In this document: positions 3,812-55,505 of the stretch, in pieces
Layout of the letters: every line of letters starts with the position of its first letter
Position numbering within the stretch: position 1 is the stretch's first letter
Assembly: GCF_949628265.1 (NCBI RefSeq)
Contig: NC_088787.1
Location: 2,408,501 to 2,472,500, forward strand
DNA: 64,000 nucleotides
Direction of reading: 5' to 3'
Origin: Cloeon dipterum
Lineage: Eukaryota; Arthropoda; Insecta; Ephemeroptera; Baetidae
Notes under the pieces: generated by a model
Database searches by the model: none
Told to the model about the DNA's origin: nothing
The model's input: the letters and a program-made list of their open reading frames with translations, nothing else
Made by a program: the position numbers and the translations under genes

Positions 3812-5719
3812 TTAGAAAAATGTTTGTTGTCCAGGAAAACTAAGCTGTCCATCGAAATGTGCCTGAAAGAGGTTTGCATTCTTCTCATCCTCAGGGTCAG
3901 CCACGCAATGCAATGAAAAGTGCTCCAGGGTTTTATCCACCTGTGGATGTGCTGAATAAATTCGATCTTGCGCCGACAGCAGCCTTGAGTAGTTTATGCC
4001 TAGTCTTATTCTCAGCCTCAATTTCAATTCTCTGCGTCACCCATAAAGTGTCATTCGTGTCCAAGGCAAAAGTAAATGGCCAATAAGCATCCAGTTCCCC
4101 AACCTAAAATAGAAACCAGAGATTTTTTTATATTGTTAGCCAGACACAGCATAAATTGTCGGCAATAAAAAAGGAGACTTTTACTTAATACTTTAAATAA
4201 ATTTTCCAATTTGTACGCCAGAGCTAAAATTTTAATTCTTAATGGAATTTTTACCTCGTGGAATCGCTGTTCCCGAAAGGGCTCCGAAATATTCCATTTG
4301 GAGGCGTAACTCTGTTCGGTAAAGGCGGCAAACAAGACGTTGGCACCGTCGATTACCATTCTGTAGGGGCTTCCAGTCCATTCGCCGACTAATTTCACAG
4401 AAATGCTTCCAACGCCTTCATTCTTCAGCACAGACACAGACACTGAATGCAGTTCTTTGGATTCGAATCCTCTAAGGTACAACTGCCTCGCTTCCCTGTT
4501 GGTAGAGAGGGCCAAGGATTCCCATTTTCTGCCTGGTGTTTTAACCGACCAGGATTTGTCCAATTTCCGGCTGTAAACGACGATGTGCTCAAAGGAAAGG
4601 TCCGTGATGTACGCAAGGGAATCTTCTGGCGTTTTGTCCAGCGCAATATCACGCAGGTACCTATTAGAAAATGAATGAGAGACGACTGCGTCCGGGAACT
4701 GGTGCACGCGCTCGATTGTATCGTTGTTGAGAAGGTCGAATATCCAAAGTTTTCCTGGACATTGGCTGCCACCATCATCAAGCACCCACAACCGACCATC
4801 AGAGTCCGTGTCAATACCGTAGGCCCTCTGAATAGTGTCGCATTTGTCTTTTTTCTGGCAAAAGAGAAATAAAAACAGTTACTATTTGTAAAAGCAGACT
4901 ATTACCCAGCAATAAATTGGATATCCTTCAGAATATCCAGATGATATACAGCCTGCTTTGATAGGGAAGATATCCAATTTCTTGCTGGGTTTTGATTTGT
5001 TTATTAATTAATCGAAATTTAGCAATACATTCTAAAAGCAAGGAAATTATTTAAATAATTTTTGGACTGAATGATCTCTGCCTTTTTTCAATTTTAGTGC
5101 GAGACTACAAAAGTTAAAAAAAGCTCATTTCCTAATTTTTCTACTGTTTATAATCTTTCACTGAAATAAAATAAGGAAAAATCGGGAAGAAATATGCTGT
5201 TATTATTGACTAAAATGATATTTTTACTAAAAAACTCAAGGGACTAAAGGTTCAAAGTCTCGAGTAGTAATTTAAGAATTCATCTAACATTTTTTAGACG
5301 TCAACTGTAAAAAAATTATTTGTATTAAAGGCGAGTTTGTTTCTTGTCAAATTTTCCCAATTTATTCTTTTATTAGAAGCTCAAAACAAGTTTTTGAATT
5401 AAGAGTCTTACATGTAATTCCCAGGTTGGGAAAGGAGCAAGTTTTGGAGGTGCAGTCGACGAGCCACTCGTTGGCAGCCACACCAAAGTGGCGGGAATTC
5501 CAGAAGCCAAAGGCTTAGAAACAGCCTTTCTCCATAAACAGCCATGAATGAAGGAACAACATTTTCCGGCCTGTATTCATTTTTAATCTGTCCATTTGAA
5601 GTATCCGCTTCTGATGGCCAGATGAAATCGAATTTGTCCCACTGGTAGACGGTTGTGAAGTTGATGGCGTTTGCCACGCACAGGCCAAACAAAAAGATGG
5701 CAGAAAATAACGGAGACAT
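3812..5719 (-). pseudogene. Yellow/MRJP-like gene 1, frameshifted and deleted
   Basis: Exon A (5412-5719) encodes a signal peptide (MSPLFSAIFLFGLCVANA) and the VYQWDKFDFIWPS motif. After GERLFLSL only 8 bases, instead of the usual 12, precede the GIPATLVW block, so the rest of the exon is read in the wrong frame and stops at the splice donor. Exon B (4255-4854, 200 codons) and exon C (3941-4103) are otherwise open and MRJP-like (WVLDDGG, CPGKLWIFDLL, KWNISEPFREQR). Intron 3 and most of exon D are missing: 5' intron sequence runs directly into the old transmembrane-exon sequence near 3920, and an in-frame stop falls at 3933-3935. Exon 0 at 8449-8504 still looks intact. It is probably a pseudogene unless the frameshift is a sequencing error. 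Confidence 0.8.
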
Positions 5720-6877
5720 TGTCTTCGAGCTGAAAGCAAAAGAAATAAAAAATTAAAACCTTTTACTATAACTATATTAGTACCAAAATCAGGCCCGGAC
5801 TGGTAATCGGGCGCACCGGGCGAAACCCCGGTGGGCCGCGGCCCAAGTGGGCCGCCCGGACCGCCCACGCCCAATAATGCCAAGTTTTGACTGTCAAGTG
5901 GCCCGCGTTTGTGGCTGTCGCGGCCCATATTTTTTAGTGGCTTTTCCGTGGTGGGACTGGGGCTGGAGGCAACACAAGTTCTAACAATTCAATTCTTTGG
6001 TTTTGCTAAAATAATTCCAAAAATAAAGGAAAAAATTAAAAAAAAATCGAAAAATAAAGTTAATACTTTCGTTACGCTTGTTGCATACCCAGCGGCCCAC
6101 CGCTTTGACCGTTCGCGGCCCGCTCCTCATTAAATTCAATTTATCATATTTCTGTTGAGAAATGAGTAAACGGGAAAACCAATGTCATCAAAGCCATCAT
6201 TTTTCCGTCTTTCCATATACTGGAAATGAAATTAAACTGAGAGCTTGATCAGACACTGGGAATCGGCGGCCCCCACTTCAAGAGTGTAAAATTCACTTTG
6301 CGTGTTTGAAACTAGCGGAAACTGTTGAATGCATTATTTGGACTTCATTTTTATTAAATTTTTATGAGAATAGGCCAACAAACGGCCAAATTAAGTATCT
6401 GAAGCTTCTTTTTGCATTTTCGAATTTTTAACCGGCGGCTGGCGTGCCTGGTGAGCTAAATCCAACGCGGCTGGCCGAGATTTTGGTAGTCCGGCTGATG
6501 TGAGTGCTCTAGTATACATTTCTATTTTTATTTGGAATTCGAATATTTAAAAAATTCAAGAAAAAATTGATGTCCTACTTATTTGAACAAAAGGTAAAGT
6601 AGAGGTTAGATTAATCTGGCATAAATTTGATGGAAAATATTTATTGCTCTGAATAAACGTCTGGCAAGAGTGAATCTTGAGCAACACACCTAGATTTTAG
6701 CAACGCAACCTTACTCAAATATAAGATTTTTCCAAATTAAGGCCAGAATAGGTCGATTATTGATGTATTTAACGTCACTTCATTCATTTCATCTATACAC
6801 TACGCACTAAAATACGTTTAATCTGTGTAATAAAAAATCGGTTGAAATTAAAGGCAACTTTCTCGGTGAATAGCTAG

Positions 6878-7022
6878 TAGCTGTTTAATTTTCCGAATTT
6901 CTACAGAAATATCCTGCTCAACTAATTTTGGCGACTAGTTTGTAGCCCTAATTCATGAGCTTCCTGTCACGTCCTGAGCAGGACAATATTTCTGTAGAAA
7001 TACGGAAAAATGAACAGCTCGC
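6878..7022. repeat. Small foldback within the hAT element
   Basis: 'agctgtttaattttccgaa', 'tttctacagaaatatcctgctca' is mirrored by 'tgagcaggacaatatttctgtagaaa', 'tacggaaaaatgaacagct'. The arms are about 45 bp around a loop of about 50 bp. Confidence 0.7.
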
Positions 7023-7045
7023 TATCCTCCGAAGAAGCTGCCTTT

Positions 7046-8592: not shown

Positions 8593-9461
8593 TTTTGCGT
8601 GATAATTTTTTTAGGCGAGACTCGCAAGAGTGCTCAGACTGACGATCTCAATAAATATTTTAATTGGTTGGAGGTTTTAGTTCTGAGATAACTATTACTA
8701 ACCGAAAATTAGTTTTGGCATATTTCAGTGTGTTTTAGAGAGATAACTCTGTCGTCACGGCGTTGTCATTTTTGGTGTTTTTTCCTTCTTTGTAGCACCA
8801 GCCGCTAAAGCAATTCTCGGACGGATGCGAAAAAATTATTTATTCATCATCCAGGTATAATTTCATTAATGATTTGGATTCCGTGAATGGAAAAATTATT
8901 CTCTTTTCGCTATCCGAGTCAAAAAATTTTTAAAGATTCATTACTGCCGAGGGTTTTTTATCGGTGAATGGAGCGAACAGAGCATTTTGTGGTCGGGCAT
9001 TCGCTGGAGTAAAAATAAATTATTCGGGAAAGAAGGTCTAAGAAGAAGAATCATGAATAATATCTGAAAATTCAGATCTATTTAAAAAAAAAATTAATCT
9101 GTGTTCTTTGTCCTTAAAAAATTTAATATTTTTAAAAATGAAGCAGAGCGATATTCTCGAAAAATTAATTATTAAAAAGGATTTTTGAACATTACCATCA
9201 TATGTATAGGTTTAAAAAGGATTAGATAAGTAAAACCAACACAGTTTTATTGCATAGGGAATAATGCAACACATAATTTTTATTTACTTTGTTGAAAAAG
9301 GCGATAAAATATTATAAAGAAATCTATGTCTTTTTAATTAACCCAGAATAAAATTGCAACACACTTTATTTTATATTAGAAAACCATTGGCTGTCCAGGA
9401 AACGCGCAGTAGTCCATCGAAATGTGCCTGAAAGAGGTTTGCATTCTGCCCATCCTCAGGG
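8593..9461. other. Spacer between gene 2 3' end and gene 1 promoter
   Basis: No gene. It contains promoter-distal sequence shared with other units ('ctgagataactattactaaccgaaaattagtt'), the 'aaaggatttttgaacattaccatcat' junction segment, and the gene 2 3' flank with a minus-strand AATAAA at 9365-9370. The stretch 9400-9461 is out-of-frame leftover of the old transmembrane exon of gene 2. Confidence 0.5.
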
Positions 9462-11089
9462 TCAGCCACGCAAAGGTAAGTCTGCAAAAGGATCAGGAAC
9501 GGGAGAGAGATTAGACTCGGCATAACCCAGAAAAAGAGTATTTGAAATAAGAGGTCTCGGCCAAGCCGCCGGTGTAAAAAGGGTCAAATTTTAAAAGGAG
9601 TCTTCAGGCCCTCTTAAGCACTATCAAACTAAACGTTTAAAATACTGTCAGTCGCTGGTGAAATTGGCCAGCTGCTGCCTTTATTAAATAATATCATTTA
9701 ACTGGTGTGAGTTTAGACCGCGACTTTTGGGCAAAATTTATTAAACAAGTTCCGATTTTATAAGCAAGAGAGATTCCCAAAATTTCATCTCACATCTAGA
9801 GTTTTATTTACCCGTGGGCGTGCCGAATAGGTACGATCCTGCGCCGACTGCAGCCTTGAGTAGTTTATGCCTAGCCTTAGACCAATCCTCAGTTTCATTT
9901 CTCTCCGTCATCCATAAAGTGCCGTTCGTGTCCAAGGCAAAAGTAAACGGCCTACCAGATTCCAGATCTCCGACCTAAAAGAGCGCAGTGAATTGATATT
10001 ATTAGCCTAATAGCGCATGAATTGTCGGGAATAAAAGGAGGAGTTAAAGGGAGTTTAACCTCGTGTAACCTCTGCTCACGAAAGGGCTCCGAAATATTCG
10101 ATTTGGATAGGTAATCCTTGTATGAAGAGGCGGCATACAAGACATTGGCGCTGTCGAATAGCATTCTGTAAGGGTTTCCAGTCCACTCGCCGATTAATTT
10201 GACAGCAGCGCTTCCGTCTTCTTTCTTCAGCTCAGACACAGACACCGAGTACATTTCTTTGGATTTAAATCTTCCCAGGTACAACTGTCTCGCTTCCCTG
10301 TTAGCAGAGAGGGCCAAGGAATACCATTTTCTGCCTGGTGTTTTAACTGTCCAGGATTTGTCCGTTTTACGGCTGTAAACTACGATGTTCTCAGACATGG
10401 CGTCTGTGATGTACGCAAGGTAGTCGTCTGGCGTTTTGTCCAGCACTATATCATGCAGCCACCCTTTTGAATATGAATGAGAGAAGACTTTGTCCGGGAA
10501 TTGGTGAACGCGCTCGGTTGTGTCGTTGTTGACCAGGTCGAATATCCAAATTTTGCTCGGACATTTGCTGTTTCCTTGATCAACCACCCACAACCGACCA
10601 TCAGGGTCCGTTTCCATTCCATTGGCCACCTGAATAGAATTGCAGTTGTCTTTTTTCTGGGAAGAAAAATACAAACAGTTATTTTTATAAATGCAGACTA
10701 TTATCCAGCAAGAAATTGGATATTAGACGCTATATATTAGAAGCTGAAAACGGGTTTTAATTTCGGAGACTTACATGAAATTCCCAGGTTGGGAAAGGAG
10801 CAAGTTTTGGAGATGCAGTCGCCGAGCCACTCGTTGGCAGCCACACCAGAGTGGCGGGAATTCCGGGACTTGTATCGTCAAGGCTTAGAAAGAGCCTTCC
10901 TTCATAAGCAGCCAAGAATCGAATTTCAACCTCCAATGGATTGAAATTTTGTTTCATCTGTCCGATTGAGCTTTCCGGTCCTGACGGCCAGACGAAATCG
11001 AATTTATCCCATTCGTAGACGGTTGTGAAGTTGACGGCGTTGGCCACGCACAGGCCAAGCAAAAATATGGCAGCAAAGAACGGAGACAT
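9462..11089 (-). CDS. Yellow/MRJP-like gene 2, secreted form (364 aa)
   Basis: The exons on the minus strand are A 10775-11089, B 10060-10656, C 9812-9974 and D 9462-9481. All junctions are GT/AG and the phases agree (0, 0, 1). Exon A gives a signal peptide (MSPFFAAIFLLGLCVANA), VYEWDKFDFVWPSG and GIPATLVWLPTSG. Exon B starts KKDNCNSIQVANGMETD and carries LWVVDQGN, CPSKIWIFDL, DIVLDKTPDDYLAYITDA, VVYSRKTDKSW and KSNISEPFREQR. Exon C has RPFTFALDTNGTLWMTER. These are the conserved blocks of the yellow/MRJP beta-propeller. Exon D adds only D-L-P-L-R-G before a stop. The old membrane exon follows in another frame, so the product should be secreted. Its specific role is unknown. Confidence 0.85.
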
Positions 11090-12216: not shown

Positions 12217-12650
12217 AATTCACCAGTTGCATAAACCCTTAGTGATCGAAGTCGCCAACAGATGGCGCCACCGTAGACTTTCGATTTTAAGGCACTTCCG
12301 CTGCGATTTCAGACTCAATCTAGCTACCGTGCATTCTTCAATTAATTTGCTATTTTTTGACGTGCTGAAAACCAAAATCGGTTCAGCCAATCGCCGTAGA
12401 ATCGTGAAAAACTATTTTTTGAAATAAAAAAATCTTTTCCAACGTTTCTACGGCGAACGGCTGAACCGATTTTGGTTTTCAGCACGTCAAAAAAAGCAAA
12501 TTAATTAAAAAAAAATAAAGTAGCTAGATTGAGTCTGAAATCGCAGCGGAAATGCCTTACAACCGCTTAAAACAAATTTTTTTAGAAAGTCTGTGGTTGC
12601 GCCATCTGTTGGCGGCTTCAATAACTAAGGGTTTATGCAACTGGTCAATT
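12217..12650. mobile_element. Foldback MITE, family F1 (full length)
   Basis: This 434-bp element is almost entirely an inverted repeat. The left arm is 'aattcaccagttgcataaa...' and the right arm '...tttatgcaactggtcaatt', with 'ccaacagatggcgcc' near each end and a centre around 'ctattttttgaaataaaaaaatc'. It is almost identical to 37018-37450. No coding capacity. It lies in the 5' intron of gene 2. Confidence 0.85.
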
Positions 12651-13625: not shown

Positions 13626-14932
13626 TTTCGCGTGATGATTTTTTTGGGCGACGAGAGAGTCGCAAATGAATTGCTCGCCAGGCGTTCTCAATAAATATGA
13701 CAATTGGTTGGAGGTTTTAGCTCTGAGATAACTATTATTAACCGAAAATTAGTGCAAGATTTTCCTGAGAGTTTTTTCACTCGTGCGCGCGAGCATCTCA
13801 GAGCTCACTCGTGAAAATGGTTTTATTTTTATTAAAATTCAGTCGTGTGTCCGATCATCGACCACGAACCCTCATCGGACAGGTCCCGGTCTGCGCTTCG
13901 ACCTGCCATACCCTGACAACCTTTTTCAGGGTACCCCGACCTAAAATCCTCCACGTAGCCGATTTTTTATTATTTTTTTCCAGCAATTTCAAGAACATTT
14001 GGCAATACGTGGTCACGATTTGAGACCTTTCCCTTCACTGACCTTCCTCAGGTCTCGTGACTTGACATTTGAAAGCGGACTTTGGATCAAAGAGGTGGTC
14101 CATGAAAGGAAAAATTACTATTTTTTCGCTGTCATGAATAATTTTAATGTTTAAAATTAAGTCAAGGGTTTTTATCGGTGAATGGAGCCAGCATTGCATG
14201 TGCGCTTATCTTCACAGCAAAAATTCTGCCTCGCAGATAATATCAGTGGAGTTGTTGAAAATGTACGCAACCGGATCGACACAAGCGCCGATCAAATTGC
14301 ATAACAAGAATCTTTACATTTCAGCATCGACACGAAAATTGATTTTTAACAATAATTTGAGAAAATGACTAGCAATGTCAAGCTGGCTGTTTAATTTTAA
14401 ATGAAAATCGTAATGCAAGCATGACATTAATGTATTAAATAAAGGGAAACAAAATTACCGCTTTGTTTACAAACATTTTATTTTGATGAAGCTTCATCTT
14501 TCCGAGAAAATTGCGAACGACCGTCAAAATAAAATTTAAGCATGCGCGCTGCACGACGCTAAAGAAATTCTTGCAAGCCTTTAGTAGAAATTTAATTATT
14601 GAAAAGAATTTTTGAACATTTTACCATCATCTGTATAGATTTAAAAAAGGACTAGATAAGAAAAACAAATACAGTTTTATTATATAGGGGATAATGCAAA
14701 ACATATTTTTATTTACCTTGAATCATTCTTACAAATAAAAGATTATTATGTTGAAAAATGCGATAAACCATTAACCGTTATAAGCAAATCTATGTATTTT
14801 TAATTAACCCAAAATTAAAATGCAACACACTCTATATTTTATATAGAAAATTATCCGGGAAAATGGACATTTCCGCACGGTTATCCATCGATATGTGCCT
14901 GAAAGAGGTTTGCATTCTTCCCGATTTCAGGT
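13626..14932. other. Spacer between gene 3 and gene 2, with an R1 copy
   Basis: No gene. Repeat R1 is in plus orientation at about 13830-14065. Then follow array spacer (14260-14620) and the gene 3 3' flank. The open stretch around 14832-14932 is the relic of the membrane exon (AWLNLKSGRMQTSF, MDNRAEMSIFPDN) in a frame that splicing from exon C does not reach. Confidence 0.5.
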
Positions 14933-16668
14933 TCAGCCACGCAGTGACAAGTCTGCAAAAGGATGAGGAACGGGAGAGAGATTGAACTTTGTGGGCGGGG
15001 CTGCGTCTTTCCAATAAGTTTACTCTGGGGACTCAGATTGATAAAGAAGACTCCGAGTAGATTCTGCGCTTCTCCAGTTGTTAAAGAGGGAGGAGGGGTA
15101 GATTCTACACGAAGGGATGATGTGGATGATTCTGTCGTGATTTGCTGCTGTCCTGAGGTCTCAGCAAGGGTCGTTAGAACTGCAAAATAAGCGTGTTATT
15201 CTCGCAACGGAAAGTGCTCTCTAGAGTTTTATTTACCAGCGGATGTGCTGAATAAATTCGATCTTTTGCTGACTGCAGCCTTGAGCAGTTTATGCCTAAT
15301 CGCACTCACAGATTGATTTCTCTGCGTCATCCAGAAAGTGCCGTTCGTGTCCAAGGCAAAAGTAAACGGCCAAAAAGCACGACCAACCTAAAAGAGTGAA
15401 GTGATTTGATATTGTTAGACTGGCGTAAAGCTTACAAATTGACGGGAACAAAAGGAGCCTTTTAATATTTTTATTTTTAGGGGAACTTTTACCTCGTGTA
15501 ATCGCTGCTCATGAAATGGCTGCGAAATATTCCATTTGGAGATGTGTTCCCAGCTGTAAAAGGCGGTATACATGACATTGGCGCTGTCGATCAACATTCT
15601 GTAAGGTTGATGAGTCCATTCTCCGATGAATTTGACAGCAGCGCTGCCGCCTTCATTCTTCAGCTCAGAAAGAGACACCGAGTACAGTTCTTTGGAACCA
15701 TATCTTCCAAGGTACAACTGTTTCGCTTCCGTGTTAGTGGAGACGGCCAAGGATTCCCATTTTCTCCTTGGTGTTTTAATTGACCAAGATTTGTCCGTTT
15801 TTCGACTATAAACTACGATGTTCTCGGATTTAGCGTCTGTGATGTACGCAATGTAGTCGTCTGGTGTTTTCTCCAGCACTATTTCCCTCAGCTCCCTTCG
15901 AATATACGAATTAGAGACGACTGTGTCCGGGAACTGGTGCACGCGCTCGGTTGTGTCGTGGTTGAGAAGGTTGAATATCCAAATTTTGCCTGGACATTTC
16001 TTGTTACCGTCATCAAGCACCCACAACCGACCATCAGTGTCCGTTTTCATTCCTTTGGCCGCTTGAATAAAATCGCAGTTGTCTTTTTTCTGGAAAGAGA
16101 AATAAAATCAGACTTTTTATTAATTAATCGAAATTTAGCAAATTAAGTGACGCTCTTCACTTTCAAAAATTTAAAATATTTTCTGGACTGAATGATCTCT
16201 ATGCCTTTTGTCTCGTTCAGTACGAGAGTCCATAAAAGTTAAGAGAAAAAGTCATTTTCAGTATAATTTGGCGTTGAACGACCCAGAAACTTCAAATTTC
16301 CCAATTTGTTTTAATAGAGGCTCAAAAAGGTTTTTTATTCAGATTTAGAGACTTACATGTAAATGCCAGGATGGAAAAGGAGCAAGCTTTGGAGGTGAGG
16401 TCGAGTTGCCGCTCGTTGGCAGCCACACCAAAGTGGCGGGAATTCCGGAATACGTATCAAGGCTTAGAAACAGCCTTTCTCCAAAAACAGCCATGTATGA
16501 AAGATAAACATTGCCTGGCTTGTATTCATCTTTGATTTGTCCGATTGAAGTGTCCGCTCCTGATGGCCAGACGAAATCGAATTTGTCCCACTCGTAGACG
16601 GTTGAGAAATTGACGGCGTTGGCCAGGCACAGGCCAAGCAAAAAGATGGCTGCTAAGAACGGAGACAT
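14933..16668 (-). CDS. Yellow/MRJP-like gene 3, secreted form (359 aa)
   Basis: The exons are A 16357-16668, B 15493-16089, C 15237-15387 and D 14933-14952. I chose the ATG at 16668 because an acceptor TTTCAG lies 10 bases upstream, ruling out reading further 5'. Exon A has a signal peptide (MSPFLAAIFLLGLCLANA) and VYEWDKFDFVWPSGADTS. Exon B has LWVLDDGNKKCPGKIWIF, LEKTPDDYIAYITDAKSE, RKWESLAVS and KWNISQPFHEQR. Exon C is 12 bases shorter at its start than in most copies. Exon D adds D-L-S-L-R-G and a stop, as in genes 2 and 4, so the product is predicted to be secreted. The AATAAA of the retained-intron form is at 15228-15233. Confidence 0.85.
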
Positions 16669-17996: not shown

Positions 17997-18635
17997 TTTC
18001 GCGTGATAATTTTTAGAGGCGAGAGTCGCAAAAGTGATCAGACTGAAGTTCTTAATAAACATAATTTATAAATAGATATGTTAATTTGCTAATTTTTTTT
18101 TTTTACCAAAAATTAGTTCAGCCTATTGTAAGCTTTTCCTGAGAGTTTTTACTCAGGGCTATCTCCAGCCCTGGTGTAAAATTTAAAAAAAATAGCACTC
18201 AAGTTCGACGAAAAATATATCTGGTATCATTTTAAGACCAAATAAAACCCGATATAATCAAATTTCTAGGAGGTTTTAAATATTAATTAAATTATTAAAG
18301 TTATTAGAAAATTGACTGTTCGAAAAGGATTTTTTAACATGACCATCAATCAACTCTCGTTTAAAAAAAGGATAAAATAAAGAAAAACGAAGCGTTTATT
18401 TTGGGGAATATATGCAATGTATATTTTTATTTGCCATGAATTAATTGTACGAATAAAAGATTATTATGTTGAAAAAGGTGATAAACCATATAGCGCTAAG
18501 TTCTGTTATTTTTAATTATCCCACAACTAAATTGCAACACACACTATTTTTTATATTGGTCTCAGTAAAAGACTGTTTGCTCTCCGGGAAATGGAATGTG
18601 CCTGGAAGAGGTCTGCTTTCTTCTTATCCTCAGGG
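17997..18635. other. Spacer between gene 4 and gene 3
   Basis: No gene. It carries the array spacer junction ('aaaaggattttttaacatgaccatcaatc' near 18335) and then the 3' flank of gene 4. Sequence at 18560-18635 is out-of-frame relic of the membrane exon. Confidence 0.45.
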
Positions 18636-21127
18636 TCAGCCACGCAATGACAAGTCTGCAAAAGGATCAGATAAGAGAGAGAGAAAGAGAGATTACATTC
18701 GTTTTTGGCGGTGTTTTGCCCGAAGAAATGGATTCTGTGGCCTCGAATTCATAAAGAGGACTCCAAATGATATAATTTGTAATCAATAAATTAAAGTTTA
18801 AATGAATATTTGTTCTGAAGATGGCCGACTTAGAGACATTTTCCGACTGAAAAAAAAACAATATTTTCTTAAGCCTGTCATGGGTGTTGATGTTGATCAA
18901 ATCAAATACGACGAGTAACTAACATTCAAAGAATTGGAATTTTATATGGATTTCCGGGCAAAAGAATTTTTATTGAAAATGTAAAATTGATAGATTGAGT
19001 TTTTTTTCAACAACGTTCTAATAAAATCAAGAGAGATTCCGAAGATCTCAGGATTTTTGACAAAACATGCTATTACGTTTAAAGGACGGGACAAATATTG
19101 CAATATTTATCTACATAAAAACATAATTAATCAAGATAAAATATGGCTTTTAGTTATTCCTTTTTGTCCATCTCTAATCGGACTGAAATAATTGAAAAAA
19201 GAAAAAGATTTGTGATTGATATTTCTAAGTTTATAAAAGGCAAATTAAAAATAAAATGAATGTGGTATAAATTTGTAGCATCATTCTCTAGCAGTTGGAT
19301 TTAATTTACCTGTGGACGTGCCGAATTGATACGATCTTGCACCGACTGCAGCCATGAGTAGTTTATGCCTCGGCTTAGTCCAATCCCCAGTATCATTTCT
19401 CTCTGTCATCCAGAAAATTCCGTTCGTGTCCAAGGCAAAAGTAAATGGCCAATCAGTATCCTGTTCTCCAACCTAAAAGTGTGCAGATATTGTTAACCTG
19501 AAAAAGCATGAAAAAGTTGGGGACATAAGGAAAGTTTGATATTTCAATTTTAAAGTCAAAAAACAGGGTTCGCCAATTGTTTCAATGCGTAAAATGCAGG
19601 CGACCATATGTTAGAAATTATGATACAAAAATATTCATTGTATAAAAACATTTCTCTTCCTTTCGCAGCATATTCAAAAATTTAACATTTGGTGGGCGGA
19701 ACCAAAATTTCAAATTTTAATTGGAAATATTTACCTCATGAATACGTTGTTCACGAAAAGGCTCCGAAATATTCCATTTGCAGAGATAATTCTGGTTGAA
19801 AAAGGCGGCATACAAGACGTTGGAGCTGTCGATTAACATTCTGTAAGGTTGGTACGACCATTCGCCGATTAACTTCACAGCAGCGCTTCGACCTTCATTC
19901 TTCAGCTCACAATCAGTGACAGACGCTGAATACAGTTCTTTGTAACCAGATTTTCCAAGGTACAGTTGTCTCTCTTCCCTGATAGGAGAGAGGGCCAAGG
20001 ACACCCATTTTCTCCCTGGTGTTTTAACCAACCAGGATTTGTTCGTTTTTCGGCTGTAAACGATGATATTCTCAGACTTAGAGTCCACGAGATATGCAAG
20101 ATTATCGTCTGGCGTTTTGTCGAGCACGATATCACGCAGGGACCTTTTATCAAATGAAGGAGAGACGACTGCGTCCGGGAATTGGTGGACGCGCACGGTT
20201 GTGTCGTTGTTGAGCAGGTTGAAAATCCAAATTTTGCTTGAACAATTTCTGCTACCTTGATCAAGCACCCACAACCGACCATCACGGTCCGTTTCCATTC
20301 CTTTGGCCGCCTGAATAGAATCGCAGTTGTCCTTTTTCTTGAAAGAGGAATATAAACAATTACTATTTGCAAGCAGATTAGTATATAGATTTTATTTATT
20401 AATCAATCGAACTTTAAAGATAAATTCTAAAAGCGGCATGAAAAATTAATTGTAACTACTTTCAAAAATTTAAAATCGTTTTATTTTTTGCGCTGAATGA
20501 TGTCTGCTTTTTGTCTCGTTCAGTACAAAACTCCAAAAGTTAAAAGAGAAACTCGTTTTCTAATTTTTCCAGCTGTGTATACTAAAATAAAAAAACAAAA
20601 AATTGGGTTAAAAATATTAGAATTTGCTGTTATTCAGTAAAATTTTATTTTTATTAAAAAAAACTCTAAGGAGTGAATCATCAAAATCTCGAGTTTGCCT
20701 CCAAAACGCAGTAATTTGAGAATTTATCCGACATTTTAGAACATTTTTTATTAATTGCGAGTTTATTTCTTTCATTTTTGCATTATTTTCTTTGCTGTTA
20801 TTTTTTTCATACTTCAAAGAGACTTACGTGTAATTCCCAGGATGGGAAAGGAGCTAGCTTCGGAGGTGCAGTCGACGTGCCGCTAATTGGGAACCACACC
20901 AAAGTGGCGGGAATTCCGCGAAACGGTTCAAGGCTTAGAAACAACCTTTCTTCAAAAACAGCCATGTATTCAAAATAAACATTCCATTTAATCTGTTCAT
21001 TTGAAGTGTTCACTCCTGATGGCCAGACGAAATCGTATTTGTCCCACTCGTAGACGGTTGTGAAGTTGATGGCGTTTGCCAGGCACAGGCCGAGCAAAAG
21101 CAGGATGGCAGAAAATAACGGAGACAT
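18636..21127 (-). CDS. Yellow/MRJP-like gene 4, secreted form (361 aa)
   Basis: The exons are A 20828-21127, B 19735-20337, C 19310-19472 and D 18636-18655, all with consistent phases. The exon B acceptor is TTTCAAG, unlike the CCAG of most copies. Exon A (signal MSPLFSAILLLLGLCLANA, YEWDKYDFVWPSG) is 4 codons shorter than usual. Exon B has LWVLDQGSRNCSSKIWIF, RDIVLDKTPDDNLAYLVDS, VYSRKTNKSWLVKTPGRKW and CKWNISEPFREQR. Exon C has WPFTFALDTNGIFWMTER. Exon D gives D-L-S-L-R-G then stop, so a secreted MRJP protein is predicted. Unlike the others, intron C does not give an immediate stop if it is retained. Confidence 0.85.
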
Positions 21128-39000: not shown

Positions 39001-39414
39001 TTTTGCGTGTATTCTATAGTACTATGAAAAAATGCAGTAATTTGAGAATTCGTCCGACTCCATGTTAGACTTTAGACGTGACTTTAATAAATATTTCTAC
39101 TAAATAAGTAGGTTCCACGTCAAATTTTATTTCGACAGAAGCTCAAAAAATATTTTCATTCAAAGACTTACATGCCAATTCCACAATGGAAAAGGTCGAA
39201 GCTTTGGAGATGCAGTCGACGTGTCGTTCGTCGGCAGCCACACCAGTGTGGCGGGAATTTCGGAATACGTATCAAGACTTAAAAACAGCCTTTCTCCAAA
39301 AACAGCCATGTATTGAAAAATTATTAATTTATTGTCCCACTCGTAGACAGTCGTAAAGTTGATGGCGTTGGCCATGAGACATAGACTATGCAATAAGATG
39401 GCTGCAATGAACAT
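36055..39414 (-). CDS. Yellow/MRJP-like gene 8, membrane protein with tyrosine-rich tail (554 aa)
   Basis: The exons are A 39172-39414, B 38004-38600, C 37648-37810 and D 36055-36716. Exon A has a signal peptide (MFIAAILLHSLCLMANA) but carries an in-frame loss of about 23 codons: VYEWDN runs straight into KLIIFQYMAVFGERL, so the otherwise conserved FDFxWPSG segment is missing. Exons B and C are complete (LWVVDQGSRNCLSKISIF, KTPDDYLAYITDSRSE, KWNISQPFREQRFHE, WPFSFALDTNGTLWSTER). Exon D has a shorter stalk, EDYRKSQS, a helix at about 385-409 (CLVLFGIVIAWL) and a cytoplasmic tail of about 140 residues. The tail's tyrosines are in AVYDDV, PLYSEV, SDYASA, EPYEV, PVYDEV, NIYDDV and VQYLKV. The acidic YxxV motifs resemble phosphotyrosine/SH2 sites, and VQYLKV fits the ITIM pattern. 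The AATAAA overlapping the exon C donor is at 37639-37644. Confidence 0.86.
37018..37450. mobile_element. Foldback MITE, family F1 (full length)
   Basis: This 433-bp inverted repeat is nearly identical to 12217-12650. Its arms begin and end 'aattgaccagttgcataaac' / 'gtttatacaactggtcaatt'. It lies in intron C-D of gene 8, between exon D (36716) and exon C (37648). Confidence 0.85.
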
Positions 39415-43528: not shown

Positions 43529-45651
43529 TCAGTCGGTAGAAGACTGTTTGCTGCCCAGGAAAACGAGGTTGTCCATCGAAATGTGCCTCGAAGAGGTTTG
43601 CATTCTTCTCATCTTCAGGGTCAGCCACGCAATTAAAGTTCCGCTCAAAACCAAGCAACACACGAGCAACCAAACCAAAATTGTGTTGAACGAAAAGGCG
43701 GTGGCTTGAGGCGTAGTTAAGGCTGCGAAAGATTCAGGAACGGGAGAATGATTAGACTTTGTTGGAGGTCTTTGGTATTCCCAAGAAATTTACTCAATGA
43801 AATAAAAAAAACCTCTTTAAATTTCCTTGAATTTAATACTTAAGACTTTTTGGGCAAAACAGTAAACGCTGCAATTTTAATTGAAAATATCTAAAATTGA
43901 TATGAGTTTCCATCCAACAAAAGGTCCAACCATGAGCAACAGAAAAACTTCAAACTCAAAATTTTATCGTATTTCTCTCGCAGTTGGATTCTATTTACCT
44001 GTGGACGTGCAGAATATATACGATTTTGCGCCGACTTCAGCCTTGAGTAGTTTATGCCTAGGCTTTCTCCAACCCTCAGATAAATTTCGCTCCATCATCC
44101 AGAAAGAGCCGTTCGCGTCCAAGTCAAAAGTAAATGGCCAATGAGTATGACCCATTCCTTCGGCCTAAAAGGGTGCATAGTGATTTGATGTTATTAGCCT
44201 GACAAAGAATAAAATTCCGGGAATATAAGGAGTTTTATGCTAAAAACTTGATCCATATAAAAATATTTTTATTTTAGAAATTTGTGCATCATTCTGGAAG
44301 AATTTAAACAGGTAAACGCTAAGCAATACCTCATACAACCGCTGCTCACGAAAGGGCTCTGAAATATTCCATTTGGTGAGGTATGTCTTGAGGGCAAAGG
44401 CGGCATACAAGACATTGGAGCAGTCGATTAACATTCTACAGGGTGATTTAGTCCAATTGCCGATGAATTTGACAGCAGCGCTTCCGCCTTCATTCTTCAG
44501 CTCTGACACAGACACTGAGTACATTTCTTCGGAAAAAGCTCTTCCAAGGTACAACTGTCTCGGTTCCTTGATAGGAGACAGGGCCAAGGAAATCCAACGT
44601 CTCCCTGGGGTTTCAACTGACCAGGATTTGTCCAATTTTCGGCTGTAGACTATGATTTTTTCAGACTCAGAGACCGTGATGTACGCGAGGTAATCGTCTG
44701 GCGTTTTGTCAAGCACGATATCATTCAGCCACCTATCATCATTTGAATGAGAGATGACTGAGTGCGGGAACTGGTGAACGCGCTCGGTTTTGTCGTTCTT
44801 GAGAAGGTTGAATATCCAAAGTTTGCCCGGACAGTTGCTGTTACCTTCATCAAGCACCCACAACAGACCATCAGTGTCCGTTTCCATACCTGAAGCCCTC
44901 TGTATAGTGTCACACATGTCTTCATTCTGTTAAGAGAAACATGTTTTCAGCAGAATATTTAATCAAGGTTTTAACGAATCAAAATGATGGGATTAATTCT
45001 AAAACCAAGTTTTCTAAACACACATTGATGACATTGAACATTCATTAAAATATATAATAAGGAGATATTCTGGGAGAGAAAATACCACATTTGTTGTTTT
45101 CAGCTAAAACTTTGTTACATTATTCTGAATTAATCAGTGAAATATAGGTTCTGAGTCTTATTAAGTGTGTGCTTTACAAATATTTTGCGTGAATAGTCTT
45201 AAACTCGGAGAAATTTGAGATGTTCGAAAATTAAAATATTATGTTTAGAAAATGAGTTAATTTCTCGTCAAGTTTTCTCATTGTCAGTTTATTCCAATTA
45301 ATGCTCAAATCAACTTTCCATTCAGAGACTTACATGTAAATGCCAGGATGGGAAAAAAGCAAGCTTTGGAGGTGTAGCAGTCGAAATGCCGTTCGTTGGC
45401 AGCCACATCAGTGATGCGGGAATTCCAGAATACCTATTATCAAGGCTTAGAAACAGCCTTTCCTCAAAAACAGCCATGTATTGAGGAAAAACATCCACCG
45501 CCCTGCGCTCATCTTTAATCTGTCTGTTTGAAGTGTCCGCTCCTGAAGGCCAGATGATATCGAATTTATCCCACTCGTAGACGGTTGAGAAGTTCAAGGC
45601 GTTGGTCAGGCAAAGGCCAAGCAGAAAGATGGCTTCAACGAAGGAAGACAT
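43529..45651 (-). CDS. Yellow/MRJP-like gene 9, membrane-anchored without stalk (424 aa)
   Basis: The exons are A 45334-45651, B 44330-44926, C 43999-44164 and D 43529-43722. The signal peptide is MSSFVEAIFLLGLCLTNA. MRJP blocks include VYEWDKFDIIWPSGADTS, LWVLDEGNSNCPGKLWIF, DIVLDKTPDDYLAYITVS, KWNISEPFREQRLYE and WPFTFDLDANGSFWMMER. Exon C begins AEGMGHTH rather than VG. Exon D is only 65 codons: ALTTPQATAF joins directly to the helix (NTILVWLLVCCLVLSGTLI), then AWLTLKMRRMQTSSRHISM and a 14-residue end. The Ser/Thr stalk and tyrosine tail are therefore both absent. The short exon D lacks an ATG and could be missed by ORF callers, but its acceptor, phase and homology are clear. Confidence 0.86.
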
Positions 45652-47626: not shown

Positions 47627-49217
47627 TCAGTGTTTTGTTTCCAGGAGAGCGTTCGTTTCCCCTTTATTTTCCATCGGAATCTGCCTCAAAGAGGTTGCCA
47701 TTCTTTTCATTTTCAGGATCATCCAGAAGATGACAGAGCCACTCAAGCCCACGAAAACCACGAGCAACCAAATCAGAATTATGACCAAAGAGTGACTTTT
47801 GCGGTAATCTTCCGCAAGATTAGCACAATCTCCGCTAGCTTCCACATCCGGTCGGAGAGTTCCAGTCCGTAGTTTGTGCTTAGTCTTACTCCCAGAGGAA
47901 TTTCGCTCCGTCATCCAAAAACTACCGCTCGTGTCCAAGGCAAAAGTAAATGGCCAACCAGCATTCAGTCTTCCGACCTGAAAAAGTGCAGTGATTTGAT
48001 TTTGTTAGCCTGACAACTGATTAAGCATAAATTGTCGAAAAAATTTAAGGAGAGGAAAGATGAAATAAATTTTTCAGGCAGGGGGAAAAATCTTTAAAAT
48101 AAATTTGATTTTTTTTTACCTCATGAAATCGTTGCTCACGAAAGGGCTCCGAAATATTCCACTTGGAGAGGTAATTCTGGTTTGTAAAGGCGGCATACAT
48201 GACGTTGGCACTGTCGATTACCATTCTGTAAAGGTTATGTTCCGCCCAATTGCCGATGAATTTCACAGAAATGCTTCCAACGCCTTCATTCTTCAGCTCA
48301 GACACAGACACTGAATACGTTTCATTCCAACCATATCTTCCAAGGTACAGTTGTCTCGCTTCCCTGTTGGGATAGAGGGCCAAGGAATACCAACGCATCC
48401 CTGGTGTTTTAACTGTCCAGGATTTGTCCAATTTTCTGCTGTAAACGATGATGTGCTCAGACAAAAGGTCCGTGATGTACGCAAGGTAATCGCCTGGCGT
48501 TTTGTCAAGCACGATATCAAGGAGCAATCTTTCATCAAATGAATTAGAGACGACTTTGTCCGGGAACTGGTGAACATGCTCGGTTTTGTCGTTTTTGACC
48601 AGGTTGAATATCCAAATTTTGCTTGGACAGTTGCTGCTTCCTTGATCAAGAACCCACAACCGTCCATCAGTGTCCGTTTCCAATCCATTGGCCCACTGAA
48701 TAGAATCGCAGTTGTCTTTTTTCTGGCAAGAGACAAAAAACAGTCATAGAATATATCCAATTAATCATTTAACGAATTAAAATTTTGATAATTTTTAAAG
48801 CGATGGTATGTGCTGAATTAACTTAAGCTATTTTCTCGTTCAGTACAAGATTCGATCAGTTTATTCATTTAGAAGCCCAAAACGAATTTTCATTCAGAGA
48901 CATACGTGTAAATTCCAGGATGGAAAAGGAGAAAGCTTTGGAGGTGCAGTCGAAGTTCCACTCGTTGGCAGCCACACCAGTGTGGCGGGAATTCCCGTAT
49001 TTGAACCAAGGCTTAGAAATAGCCTTTCTCCAAAGACAGCCATGTAGACAAGATGGACATTTCTTTGTTTAAAATTTCGTTTAATCTCTTCAATGGCACT
49101 GTCCGCTCCTGATGGCCAGACGAAATCGAATTCGTCCCACTCGTAGACGGTTGAGAAATTGACGGCGTTTGCCAGGCACATGCCAAGCAAAAAGATGGTG
49201 GCAACAAACACAGACAT
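47627..49217 (-). CDS. Yellow/MRJP-like gene 10, membrane-anchored with fused exon C/D (421 aa)
   Basis: The exons are A 48906-49217, B 48120-48722 and a single C/D exon 47627-47977. The signal peptide is MSVFVATIFLLGMCLANA. MRJP blocks include VYEWDEFDFVWPSGADSA, LWVLDQGSSNCPSKIWIF, DIVLDKTPGDYLAYITDL and KWNISEPFREQRFHE. In the last exon, WPFTFALDTSGSFWMTER runs through SKTKHKL and passes in frame directly into RTGTLRPDVEASGDCANL, the distal stalk seen in other copies, then AEDYRKSHS and the helix (IILIWLLVVFVGLSGSVIF). Intron C, the end of exon C (LLKAAVGARSY...) and most of the stalk were thus removed without breaking the frame. The tail is short, ending ETNALLETKH. Confidence 0.87.
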
Positions 49218-50782: not shown

Positions 50783-53229
50783 CTAAAGCCGAGTTTCGCC
50801 ACTGTTAGGTAACACCTCAAGATACTGCAACGACTCTCTTGGTGGTCTAAACGCGATTCCTGGTCCAACGTCATCGTAATTATTTTCCGGCTCCGTAGAA
50901 CCAACTTCGTCATACACCGGCTCCGATGGTTTTCCCACGTTGGTGTTTCCCAGACGCAAAGGTTCTTCGTAGAGCACAGGAGAAGGCGTCCTGCCGCTGG
51001 CGTAATCCGAGGTCAAAGGCTCAGGGCCAACTTCAGCGTACAGCGATTCGTCAGGATTCTCAGGCCTGGCCGCTTCGGAATTTTCGGGTTCGACGCCGTC
51101 GTACACTTGGTCGTCTGGGAAAAGGGACATTTCTGCATGATTGTCCATCGAAATCTGCTTCAAAGAGGTTTGCATTCTTCTCATTCTCAGGGTCAGCCAC
51201 GCAATGACAGCGCCGCTCAAGACCAAGCAACTGACGCAACAAACGAACAACCAAATCAGAATTGTGACCAAAGACTGACTTTTGCGGTAATCTTCAGCAA
51301 CACCACCGCAAATTTCATTTGATTCCACAGCCGGTTGGCCAGTTCCAGTCTTGCTTGTCGGCGTTTGCAAGCTTTTTTCGACTTCCCTAGTCTTTCCATT
51401 CACGTCAGTTGTAGACGAGGTTGCGAGGGGAAGGGCAGATGAGTGCTGGCTAGAAGCTGTGGTTGAAATCTGCTGAGATATAGGAATACTCATCTCGGTC
51501 TTAAAAACAGGAATCCGACGAGGAGACGTGGTCACTGAAGTTGTTCCTTGTGCTGGAGGCGTTGTCAAGGCTGCGGGAGGAACAAGATCAGGGGAAAGAT
51601 TAGACTCTGTGGGCGGTGATGGGTCGTATTATGAGGTAATTTATTGTATTATCCTCTCATTCGAAAGTACACTTGGATTTTAATTACCTGTGGATGTGCT
51701 GAATAAATATGATCTTGCGCCGACTGCAGCCTTGAGTAGTTTATGCCTAGTCTTACTCCCAGTGGCATTTCGCTCCGACATCCATAAATTGCCGTTCGGG
51801 TCCAAGGTAAAAGTAAATGGCCAACTAGCACCAAGTATACCGTCCTAAAAGAGCGCAGTGATTTGATATTGTTAGCCTAACAACGCTCAAATAGTCAGAT
51901 AAACAAGGAGAGGATGAATATTTTATTTTGAAGGATATTATAGAGAGGGAAATTTACCCTGTAAAATGTGCGTTAATGGATAGCATGTTAATATCTTTTT
52001 TTAAGCCAAACCCATTCCATATAAATCAGTTTCTTAATGCTCTGCAGTTTAAAAAAATATTTTTCACACAAAAAGGAAATTTATTGCATGGAGTTTTACC
52101 TCATAAAATCGCTGCTCACGAAAGGGCTCAGAAATATTCCATTTGGAGAGGTAATTCCGGTTGAATAAGGCGGCATACAAGACATTGGCACTGTCGATTA
52201 ACATTCTGTAAGGTTCGTCATTCCATTCACCGATTAATTTGACAGCAGCGCTTCCGCCTCCGTTCTTCAGCTCAGACACAGACATTGAGTACAGTTCTTT
52301 GGATTGAAATCTCCTTAGGTACAACTGTCTCGCTTCCCTGTTAGCGGAGAGGGCCAAGGAATACCAACTTATCCCTGGTGTTTTAACTGTCCAGGATTTG
52401 TCCATGTTTCGGCTGTACACCGCAATTTGCTCAGAATTATAATCCGTGATGTACGCTAGATCATCGTCTTGTGTTTTGTCGAGCACGATATCAAACAATT
52501 GCCTTACATTAGAATCGATTAAGTGCGGGAATTGGTGAACGCGCTCGATTATGTCGTTGTTGGGAAGGTTAAATATCCAAAGTTTGCTTGGACATTTCTC
52601 GCTACCGTTATCAAGCACCCACAACCGACCATCAGGGTCCGTTTCCACACCTTTTGCCGACTGAATAGAATCACAGTTGTCTTTTTCCTGGCAAAGATAG
52701 GAAAAGAAATAACAGTTAATAGTTAAGCATAATATCTTTTATTAATCTCTTAAAAATATCAAAATTGTGTGATTACTTCTAAGATGCGTTTGATAATTTC
52801 AAAAGAAAAGTGCTTTATATGTGCTGAATCGCATCTTTAGCTATTTGCTCGTTCAGTTCAAGAATCGAAAAGTTTGTTCTTTTAGAAGCACAAAACAATT
52901 TTTCATTCAGGACTTACGTGTAAATTCCAGGATGGAAAAGGAGCAAGCTTTGGAGGTGCAGTCGACGAGCCGCTCGTTGGCAGCCACACCAACGTGGCGT
53001 CAATTCCGGATTGCGTTTCAAGGCTGAGAAACAGCCTTTCTCCAAAAACAGCCATGTAATCAAGATAGACTTTCGATGATTTAAAATTCTGCTTGTTCTG
53101 TCCGTTTGAAGTGTCCGCTTCTGATGGCCAGATGAAATCGAATTCATCCCACTCGTAGACGGTTGTGAAGTTGATGCCGTTGGCAAGGGAAAGGCCAAGC
53201 AAAAAGATGGCAGCAAAGAACGGAGACAT
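50783..53229 (-). CDS. Yellow/MRJP-like gene 11, membrane protein with long tyrosine-rich tail (614 aa)
   Basis: The exons are A 52918-53229, B 52100-52687, C 51688-51844 and D 50783-51570. The signal peptide is MSPFFAAIFLLGLSLANG. MRJP blocks include VYEWDEFDFIWPSEADTS, LWVLDNGSEKCPSKLWIF, DIVLDKTQDDDLAYITDY, KWNISEPFREQRFYE and WPFTFTLDPNGNLWMSER. Exon D encodes a stalk of about 90 residues, AEDYRKSQS, a helix at about 453-478 (CCVSCLVLSGAVIAWL), RMRRMQTSLKQISMDN and a cytoplasmic tail of about 135 residues. Its tyrosines are in QVYDGV, SLYAEV, SDYASG, VLYEEP, PVYDEV, NYDDV and LQYLEV. The last fits an ITIM (LxYxxV) and the acidic ones resemble SH2-type sites. This is the most complete, receptor-like member. 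Partners are unknown. Confidence 0.88.
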
Positions 53230-53900
53230 TTGTGTTCCAGCTGAAAGCAAAAATTAAAAATCCGTTTAAAAACTCGTTTTAGCACCGATGTTTATTCGTG
53301 ATGATTAAGTGTAAAATACGTTTTCCGTTTATTCAATTCATTCAAGCAATGTCTCTGTGCATTGAAAATTGTAATAGTTAAAAGACTAAGTGGAGCTGTT
53401 GATGATTTTAAAATTACTTCTTTTGATTAAATTTAATACATTTTTGCTGTCTTGATTTTGTGTAACAGAAAGAAAGTATAAAAAACAGCGCTGTGTGACG
53501 ATAAGGCGCTCGATTTGTACATCCTGTTCGCGTTATCGCTTTCCCGGTGCACTTGTATGCATACACTCGTTTTTGCTGTACGCTCAATCCAATGAAAAGA
53601 TGAATAAAAAGTAAAAAAAAAAAATAATTAGCCAAACAGTTTTTGAGTCCACAAAAATTAAAAATATACACAGGAAACACCTCTTTCAGATTGAACCAAA
53701 TAAACAATATTTTTTACTTAAAAAATTAAATCGTTAAATAAATACATATTTTCTCTTACAGTTCTTTCTGCTTGACCTCAGAAAATATTTATTTAAAAAA
53801 TAATTAATAGTAAAAAATTATTTCAATTTGAGACAAATAAAAAGTAATGACGTGCTTGAGTTTCAATAAAACAGGCCAACACGAAAAACGTTTTCTTTAC

Positions 53901-54008
53901 CTTAAATGCAGCAAAAATCACCCCCAACATTCAGTTGAGCGCCGCCGAGACGCTGCCTTGTCGACGTTGACAGAGCATCTAAATAGCGCTTTTTACTTCT
54001 GATAACTC
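53901..54008 (-). promoter_or_regulatory. Promoter and exon 0 of gene 11
   Basis: TATTTAG (53979-53985) lies 31 bp from the A of CAGCG (53954). Exon 0 is 54 bp and ends at 53901 with AAG|GTAAAGAAA. The CRE and the GGGTTGGAGG block are deleted: 'aactcg' passes directly to 'tcggaaatgac'. Confidence 0.55.
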
Positions 54009-55217
54009 GTCGGAAATGACAAACCACATCATTTTGTGTGGTATTTTTTTGAGGCGAGATCCGCAAAAGAAAAATGCTTGGCCGGACGTTCTTAGTTAGT
54101 AAACATATTAAAAAAAACGTGTTAATTCACTGTTTTTAGTCCAAAGAAATAGACGTTTTAGTGAGAAATAACTTGAAAAGGAGAAATATTAATTTATTTA
54201 TATGAATGAGTTCGCTAATGCTAAATAATAAGACTTAAAAATTCAAGTTCTCACTTCCCGAGAAGATTTATTAAAAAAAAGGTGGGAGGGTGCAACGGTT
54301 GGAAGATTTTTTTTATGAAAAAAAAATCAGAATATTACTTTGGCTCAGTCTTTTTTGTAGTTTATTGAGATCCGTATCATTTGGACTGTAATATTACAGA
54401 ACGATAAATTAAATAAACACAATTTTACAGATAAACTGAAGGCACGGCGTCCTTAACTGTCAAAGCCAAGTGCGATATGGAGAGCGTCTTGATAACAACT
54501 CACTGCGGTTTTTCCTTCTTTGTGGCGGCAGCAGCGAAAGCAGTGCTCGGACGGGCACGAAAAAATTATTTCTTTATTTTATATAGATGATGCGATTGAC
54601 TCTATTTTCCTAAAACTAATAATTTTATCTTTAAAAAAAGATGAGAGCTATTCTTCTAGGCTGCAACTGCGTCCTCTTTCGCGTCAAAAGTGCTGTTCCG
54701 TGATTTTCACTGTCAAATGAGCGTCTGCTTCCGTCAAATCCTCAGGTTTTGTTGTTGAAAAAGTATGCAACCGGCTTTACACAAACGCCGAGAAAATTGC
54801 ATAACAAGAGGAAATAATAAATTTACTAATAATCGAAGTGCAAAATTAAGAAAATGTGTCTACGGCAAAATAATTTACCTATCTAACTGTAAAAAATGTA
54901 GTTTTGATTGCGGTCTTCAGAATTCTAAGCTTGAAATTGCCAAGAAAGTGCCCAAACTATTTTTTAAGGTCACAAATTGTAAGAATGAGTCAGAAATTTT
55001 TTTAAGCTTCATTGGAAAATTGATTATTGAGAAGTATATTGTTTTAATGACCCCCTCGACGCCAGATAAAAAAGCAACAGTTTGTTATTTTAGGAATATG
55101 CAATATATTTTTATTTAATAGATATAAGATTATTTCATTAAAAAAATCATAGCGTGTTTTGTTCAGCTTTGTCAATTTTTTTTTTAAGATAAACTTTTAA
55201 TTAAAATGTAACAAAAA
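54009..55217. other. Spacer upstream of gene 11
   Basis: No supported gene. It holds array spacer words ('ttcttagttagtaaacat', 'aagccaagtgcgatatgg', 'agtatgcaaccggctttacacaa') up to the remnant of gene 12. The open frame at 54765-55118 shows no recognised motif and overlaps spacer repeats. Confidence 0.45.
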
Positions 55218-55505
55218 TTATTTTTTATTATAGTTGGTGTTTCCCAGACGCAATGGTTCCTCGTAGATTTCAGGAGAAGGGTTCCTGGCACAGGCGTAAT
55301 CGTAGGGAACTGAGGTCAAAGACTCAGGGTCAACTTCCGCGTACAGTGGTTCGTCAGGATTCTCAGGTCTGGCCTCTTCGTTTGAATTTTCGGGTCCAAC
55401 GTCGTCGTACACTGCGTTGTCCACCGAAACGGACATTTCCGCACGATTGTCCATTGAAATCTGCGTCAACGGGGTTTGATTTCTTCTCATTCTTCTCATT
55501 CATAA
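55218..55505 (-). pseudogene. Remnant of gene 12: cytoplasmic-tail part of exon D
   Basis: On the minus strand the frame reads MRRNQTPLTQISMDNRAEM, then AVYDDVGPENSNEEARPENP, PLYAEVDPESLTS, YDYACARNPSP and IYEEPLRLGNTN before leaving homology (YNKK-stop). It matches the tails of genes 8 and 11 from just inside the membrane to about two thirds of the tail. There is no helix, stalk or propeller upstream: the 5' side runs into an R3-long repeat (55510-55790). The frame is still open, so it was lost fairly recently or is kept for another reason. It marks the right end of the array. Confidence 0.8.

Follow-up and report, generated by a model that had tools for sequence, protein, structure and literature searches.

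The known yellow/MRJP proteins are secreted and serve in pigmentation, nutrition and saliva, and their genes are tandemly duplicated in some lineages. To our knowledge, no member outside the secreted class has been described, and no genome is known to contain more than tens of copies. Three other systems are relevant for comparison. Nephrin has an immunoglobulin ectodomain and does not form a large family, paired immune receptor families (e.g. KIR-like) contain long-tailed, short-tailed and soluble members, and the immunoglobulin mu gene can switch between a membrane and a secreted form of its product. The present analysis concerns a tandem array of yellow/MRJP-type genes in a 64,000-nucleotide stretch of the mayfly Cloeon dipterum genome (NC_088787.1; G000:C2:2408501-2472500), here called the window, and the relatives of these genes throughout the genome. 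Positions of the array genes are window coordinates.

The array appears to belong to a large family of type I single-pass cell-surface receptors with predicted signalling and with soluble relatives, a reading that we consider likely. Its parts differ in strength. The predicted architecture, consisting of a signal peptide, a propeller, a Ser/Thr-rich stalk, a transmembrane (TM) helix, inner basic residues and a tyrosine-containing tail, is well supported. Signalling by the tail is strongly indicated by its motifs, and a recognition role, immune or cell-cell, directed at variable outside targets is a guess. The literature searched, with most subscription papers outside its coverage, contained no report of a membrane-anchored yellow/MRJP architecture.

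Architecture of the array genes

The window was read in six frames and gene g1 was solved by hand. Its four exons (A-D) were then used as queries to find the remaining genes, with splice donors and acceptors placed near the expected positions. Eleven sets of exons A, B and C of yellow/MRJP type lie in tandem on the minus strand, together with one D-only remnant (Table 1), and the phases of the exon joins agree wherever they were read (A-B, 0; B-C, 0; C-D, 1). Genes are numbered g1-g11 from right to left, and g7-g1 are genes 5-11 of an initial annotation of this DNA. That annotation had described eleven copies and a remnant with matching exon phases, which the exon searches and the joins read bear out. 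All eleven sets are present, but g11 is frameshifted and exon A of g4 is 23 residues shorter than that of neighbouring genes. The reading frame of g11 exon A changes midway, so this gene is probably broken.

By domain score and by relation to solved six-bladed members, the predicted window proteins are yellow/MRJP proteins. Spliced g1 scored 72.2 bits against Pfam MRJP (PF03022; cut-off 19.8), the sole family above its cut-off, and one propeller of subfamily 2 scored 42.5 bits against the same model. A profile built from seven spliced propellers matched the solved structures of MRJP1 (7.3e-27), dopachrome conversion enzyme (2.5e-24) and sand-fly LJM11 (3q6k; 3.3e-12). Designed "Pizza" propellers in the same match list are due to one short repeated motif. 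Hydrophobic N-terminal starts were observed, by Kyte-Doolittle score only, in 10 of the 10 window genes with a modelled start (that of g11 was not modelled). One report describes serotonin binding by LJM11 (PMC5094789). The presence of LJM11 among the profile matches would suit chemosensory or biogenic-amine receptors, in which the small-ligand pocket of LJM11 would be kept in the propeller and the tail would signal. We know of no single-pass, tyrosine-tailed odour receptor, and this alternative is considered quite improbable.

Yellow/MRJP proteins are normally secreted and lack a membrane helix, whereas a helix was found in 7 of the 11 window genes (g1-g7). The best 19-residue Kyte-Doolittle mean in this single helix is 2.51-3.18, compared to 0.79-1.56 for the highest window within the propellers (g11 scored without its exon A), and K/R-rich residues follow it. 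The initial annotation had assigned one hydrophobic helix and basic residues to these same genes and had named an exon D devoid of a helix as grounds for abandoning its view; the scan upholds the assignment. A hydrophobic open frame by itself is no proof of a TM helix, since a chance frame reaching 2.52 lies downstream of the secreted g10. Homology among the D exons, their position and phase, and the structure of g2 together identify the predicted helix as real. The final blade of the g2 propeller lies in the same open frame as the helix, so this gene needs no splice to a separate exon. The automatic helix filter missed the true helices of g1 and g2, both of which were recovered by homology. 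Only g1 and g4 have a long tail; g2, g3 and g5-g7 stop soon after the helix. As a separate observation, the TM helix of the short-tailed g6 (exon D, 27925-27464) contains an internal Arg; activating members of paired immune receptor families carry an Arg in the membrane helix.

Tails were compared in a set comprising 12 from subfamily 1 (one cut at 88 residues, the rest 129-147) and 15 from subfamily 2 (130-150 residues). Twenty D regions were fetched and 16 used, with L057, L059 and L063 lacking a helix by the filter and L060 ending early; L016, L020 and a shortened tail in L038 were omitted. The tails are not independent, as L021 and L022 are 94% identical. Overall, the cytoplasmic tail of long-tailed members spans ~80-150 residues; L019 and L032, two single genes on deep branches, encode tails of 87 residues (4 tyrosines) and 82 residues (5 tyrosines), respectively. 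The pattern Yxx[VILP] occurred 5.5 times per tail in subfamily 1 (shuffled mean 1.94, maximum 2.83) and 6.0 times in subfamily 2 (1.89 and 2.67), with YDDV, YDEV, YAEV, YEVP and QYLK.LP among the motifs. Tyrosine columns in subfamily 1 were more conserved than other columns (0.92 versus 0.75, P 0.003). At least one Nck-type pattern (YD[DEQNG]V or YQDV) was present in 28 of 29 long tails, with 66 sites in all. By pattern, YxxP was found in 26 of the 29, a C-terminal [QHL]YL[KEQ] in 28, a predicted immunoreceptor tyrosine-based inhibition motif ([SIVL]xYxx[ILV]) in 19 and a relaxed immunoreceptor tyrosine-based activation motif (ITAM) allowing V in 23. The third subfamily is represented by one gene that was read, L076, which encodes a helix and, in the tail, one EPIYEEIKP. 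For exon D of subfamily 2, no Pfam match exceeded its cut-off and PDB matches were no better than E 0.65.

A report on nephrin gives its Nck-binding tyrosines as YDEV, YDEV and YQDV and describes their binding to Nck after phosphorylation by the Src kinase Fyn (PMC3237483). The pattern of the tails described here strongly suggests SH2 docking sites of the same kind, with several YDxV-type sites in the inner tail. The two systems differ outside the cell, where an immunoglobulin ectodomain is present in nephrin but MRJP is the only family detected in spliced g1. The initial annotation had raised the idea of receptors without mention of tyrosine-motif tails, from which that idea gains weight.

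In the proposed mechanism, the propeller would bind a ligand outside the cell and receptor clustering would let a Src-type kinase phosphorylate the tail. The YD(D/E/Q)V sites would then recruit an adaptor of the Nck/Dock type and the YxxP sites one of the Crk type, while QYLK.LP at the C terminus would attract a phosphatase or kinase with an SH2 domain. Ligand binding would thereby lead to a response in actin or uptake. Members with a short tail would bind but send no tail signal. Secreted members, some of which stem from a single ancestral deletion, would be soluble binders or decoys.

Size, classes and origin of the family

The genome searched totals 190 Mb in 10 contigs; four measure 33-43 Mb, and in a fifth, matches were found past the 35 Mb position. 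It gave 1 weak odorant-binding-protein match among 4 candidates and 5 odorant-receptor-type matches among 25, counts that on their own spoke against C. dipterum, for which 191 odorant-binding proteins are reported (PMC7250882), although members of either family with short exons could have been missed. Daphnia as a source was judged unlikely, since yellow genes are reported to have been lost from non-copepod crustaceans (PMC6678240). Three exon-B queries were used and the best 150 of 371, 378 and 368 candidates were scored; from the third search, the 35 of 150 rows judged new by eye were entered into the merge. At least 278 exon-B places resulted. Contig C2 (37.5 Mb) contains 240 of them between 0.34 and 5.36 Mb, 11 past 35 Mb and 1 in another position, and the other 26 are on C1, C3, C4 and C5. 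At least 251 copies accordingly lie towards the two ends of one chromosome. The tandem array of the initial annotation is confirmed, but the family is not confined to it and extends far outside the window. Stops within the matched exon B were seen in 2/150, 1/150 and 3/150 rows, representing 3 places, in searches that favour intact copies. Exon-D searches (best 71 of 114, 112 of 149 and 17 of 24 candidates) yielded at least 145 merged exon-D-like places, some of which are remnants. A scan of viral contigs for relatives gave 21 pattern matches, none of them a relative. The family shares with yellow/MRJP proteins a homologous propeller across most of the ectodomain and a signal peptide, but differs in its number of exon-B copies and in the addition of a TM helix, a stalk and a predicted signalling tail.

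Together with the window, 45 fetched loci (L numbers) gave 66 genes anchored on exon B, 47 of which have a complete automatic A-B-C model. Tail classes were assigned by reading the downstream frames. Fourteen genes are long-tailed (L020 on an incomplete exon), 18 are membrane-bound and short-tailed, and 34 had no helix found, the last number being a maximum, given that the fetched sequence mostly stops ~2.6 kb past exon B. The anchor is present in three subfamilies and in the two deep single genes, L019 and L032. The subfamily-1 clusters on C1 (L010-L014, L017) and C5 (L050-L053) showed no helix in the fetched stretch, and the short-tailed subfamily-2 gene L035 (C2:1402000) has a stop in exon B. 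At two places on C2, near 1.393 and 1.419 Mb (L034:6545-7739 and L036:1871-3065), exon A is followed by a helix and long tail with no exon-B or exon-C match between A and D. The exon-D translations of the two are identical, and in both genes the propeller is missing.

A tree built from exon-B proteins placed three long-tailed genes (L019, L032 and L034) on deep branches, along with L015, L033 and L049. In a second tree, the third subfamily joined below these branches. The split of the three subfamilies plus L019 and L032 from L074, L004 and two ordinary yellow genes had a support of 98; several other splits in this tree were weak (36-64). The deep long-tailed branches and the 98 split from secreted or glycosylphosphatidylinositol (GPI)-like outgroups favour, as the simplest course, one gain of helix and tail, at the root of the expanded clade and before its expansion, followed by several losses. 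A Thr-rich stretch downstream in L074 and its close relative L075 (C4) resembles a stalk, but exon C of L075 ends in ..AKSYLYDD with a stop right after it and a C-type-lectin-like open frame, seen by eye, follows the L074 gene; both were counted as secreted. A C-type-lectin-like open frame with a Thr-rich stretch was also seen by eye in L078 (C4 near 33.66 Mb), downstream of a secreted yellow relative. L004:2680-2949 belongs to a single yellow relative whose final exon closes with a hydrophobic segment that lacks basic residues and resembles a GPI-anchor signal.

Genes g8, g9 and g10 share one deletion, in which the exon-D acceptor is joined to the helix end and the frame reads DL[SP]LRG-stop. 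The 27-base junction was found at 32 genome sites within 3 mismatches, compared to 0 for the reversed control, and L010, L013, L014 and L017 (C1) carry the same deletion. Because the junction recurs at these sites, keeps the splice acceptor and gives an early stop, the predicted secretion of the deletion-bearing genes is a secondary loss of the anchor. The initial proposal that secreted yellow proteins became a membrane multigene family holds in that this lineage has an anchored multigene family, but secretion in g8-g10 is a later loss and not the starting state. The passage from a secreted family to a receptor family would become testable here, given outgroups whose proteins end in secreted or GPI-like form, one gain as the simplest course, and repeated loss.

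Selection and the candidate recognition role

Median pairwise ratios of nonsynonymous to synonymous substitution (dN/dS) for exons A, B and C were 0.49, 0.53 and 0.77 in subfamily 1 and 0.44, 0.45 and 0.60 in subfamily 2. The tail medians of 0.55 (subfamily 1) and 0.53 (subfamily 2), set against 0.44-0.53 for exons A and B, show that the tails are constrained like the propeller. Sites were tested with a parsimony count from our own script on 21 subfamily-1 and 24 subfamily-2 genes, and 64 and 87 codons, respectively, were under purifying selection. Windows that change faster lie at about residues 151-165, 223-237 and 328-342 of g1. Exon A with its upstream bases is 89.4% identical between g1 and g7 over 378 bp, whereas their exon-B proteins are 70% identical, which suggests that exon-sized pieces have been exchanged between copies.

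Several results weigh against the receptor reading. Excess replacement (P < 0.05) was seen at 3 of the 355 codons tested for subfamily 1 and at none of the 345 for subfamily 2, which is below chance; the site-wise test, a weak method, gives no sign of an arms race and does not favour one. The stalk drifts, with a dN/dS of 0.84 (five sequences). Tyrosine columns in subfamily 2 were not significantly more conserved than others (0.85 versus 0.77, P 0.17), and a classical ITAM (Yxx[IL]x6-12Yxx[IL]) was present in 0 of 29 tails. Except in g2, the C-D splice is predicted from sequence. Finally, no helix was found in the fetched stretches of the deep L015, L033 and L049 or of L051 and L052 at the base of subfamily 1; L051 and L052 retain weak stalk-like matches.

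Purifying selection without an arms-race signal would fit membrane-tethered structural or adhesion proteins, whose propeller would bind cuticle, mucus or matrix and whose tail would link to actin, with copies serving dosage or tissue variety. Yellow proteins act in insect cuticle and secreted layers, and Nck-type motifs fit actin coupling. However, at least 278 diverged copies, short-tailed and secreted classes and 5-6 tyrosine motifs per long tail exceed the needs of an anchor, and we regard this explanation as unlikely. For the receptors preferred here, the guess of a recognition role is favoured because of copy number and class structure and is weakened by the selection result. As in KIR-like families, one ectodomain type is combined with predicted signalling, non-signalling and soluble classes in tandem clusters, whereas the fold is unrelated, and neither classical ITAMs nor positive selection was found in the tails and codons analysed. 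If true, the family would represent a new route to a large animal receptor repertoire, outside the immunoglobulin, leucine-rich repeat and lectin folds.

Exon C ends in subfamily 1 and further features of the window

The end of exon C in subfamily 1 bears on which form of the protein is made. Reading past exon C led to a stop within three codons in 25 of 32 subfamily-1 genes, which would give a secreted product without exon D. Such a product would agree with an ordinary secreted yellow expansion, in which no transcript would include exon D and the D frames would be remains of a different gene. This is very unlikely in view of the single open frame of blade and helix in g2, the exon-D-like frames that follow propeller exons in three subfamilies and are under constraint, and the splice acceptor retained at the 32 sites with the deletion junction.

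Most subfamily-1 genes read have a donor, stop and hexamer after exon C similar to those at intron 3 of g1 (Table 1). AATAAA or ATTAAA lies within ~20 bases of the intron-3 donor in 21 of 32 subfamily-1 genes and in 11 of 14 with an intact helix exon, versus 1 of 29 in subfamily 2 (g2 has no third intron and is outside these counts; L035 was counted as subfamily 2). The same hexamers were found at the starts of subfamily-1 introns 1 and 2 in 3/32 and 3/35 cases, and at 13.7% of 205 control GTAA sites on the window minus strand. The excess may reflect shared descent because the copies are related. The usual G at +5 is missing from the intron-3 donor in 32 of 32 subfamily-1 genes, a weakness whose reading is limited by the intron-2 donor also being weak. 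The arrangement is what an immunoglobulin-like choice between membrane and secreted forms would need, although the site may be unused. It shares with immunoglobulin mu the overlap of a weak donor, a stop and a polyadenylation-type hexamer after the last secreted exon, but the likeness is one of sequence and hardly extends to subfamily 2. A broader proposal, offered tentatively and doubtful as a whole, is a yellow/MRJP recognition receptor system of ~300 genes, in which subfamily-1 genes would make a membrane or soluble form through competition of the weak donor with the overlying polyadenylation signal, as immunoglobulin genes do, and the long, short and secreted classes would derive from one tyrosine-tailed ancestor.

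Table 1 Predicted features of the array in window coordinates.
Feature	Position	Strand	Exons and junctions	Description
g1	50783..53229	-	A 53229-52918, B 52687-52100, C 51844-51688, D 51570-50783	Signal peptide, MRJP propeller, Ser/Thr stalk, TM helix, long tyrosine tail
g1 intron-3 donor	51679..51688	-		Overlaps in-frame stop and ATTAAA hexamer
g2	47627..49217	-	A 49217-48906, B 48722-48120, fused C+TM exon in open frame 48004-47630	Short tail
g3	43529..45651	-	A 45651-45334, B ~44923-44330, C ~44161-44000, D ~43723-43532	TM helix, hardly any stalk, short tail
g4	36055..39414	-	A 39414-39172, B 38600-38004, C ~37801-37649, D 36717-36058	TM helix, long tyrosine tail
g5	31344..33740	-	A from 33740, B from 33245, C from 32346, D 31802 to stop near 31344	TM helix, short tail
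g6	27461..29911	-	A from 29911, B from 29224, C from 28304, D 27925-27464	TM helix, short tail, one YDDV
g7	23577..25621	-	A from 25621, B from 25099, C from 24306, D 24050 to stop near 23577	TM helix, short tail
g8	18556..21127	-	Deletion junction near 18658	Secreted; exon D reduced to acceptor and early stop
g9	14841..16668	-	Deletion junction near 14955	Secreted; junction as in g8
g10	9412..11089	-	Deletion junction near 9484	Secreted; junction as in g8 and g9
g11	3844..5719	-	Short exon-D piece 3909-3844	No helix; only this piece of exon D remains
Tail-only exon-D remnant	55221..55499	-	Remnant 55493-55224	No helix, no propeller beside it

Within the array, a ~435-bp repeat is present in two copies (12217-12650 and 37018-37450) that are 94.7% identical; it is probably a dispersed element because a similar translation occurs in L003 on C1. 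Tandem repeats occupy 556-1116 and 3407-3481; they comprise units of ~212 and ~173 bp, in which CGTGGATGCTCCGTGGA occurs, together with a 24-bp minisatellite, and lie within frames open on both strands. Plus-strand open frames adjoin the array at 61147-63834, one of which matches a BACK (BTB/kelch-type) domain.

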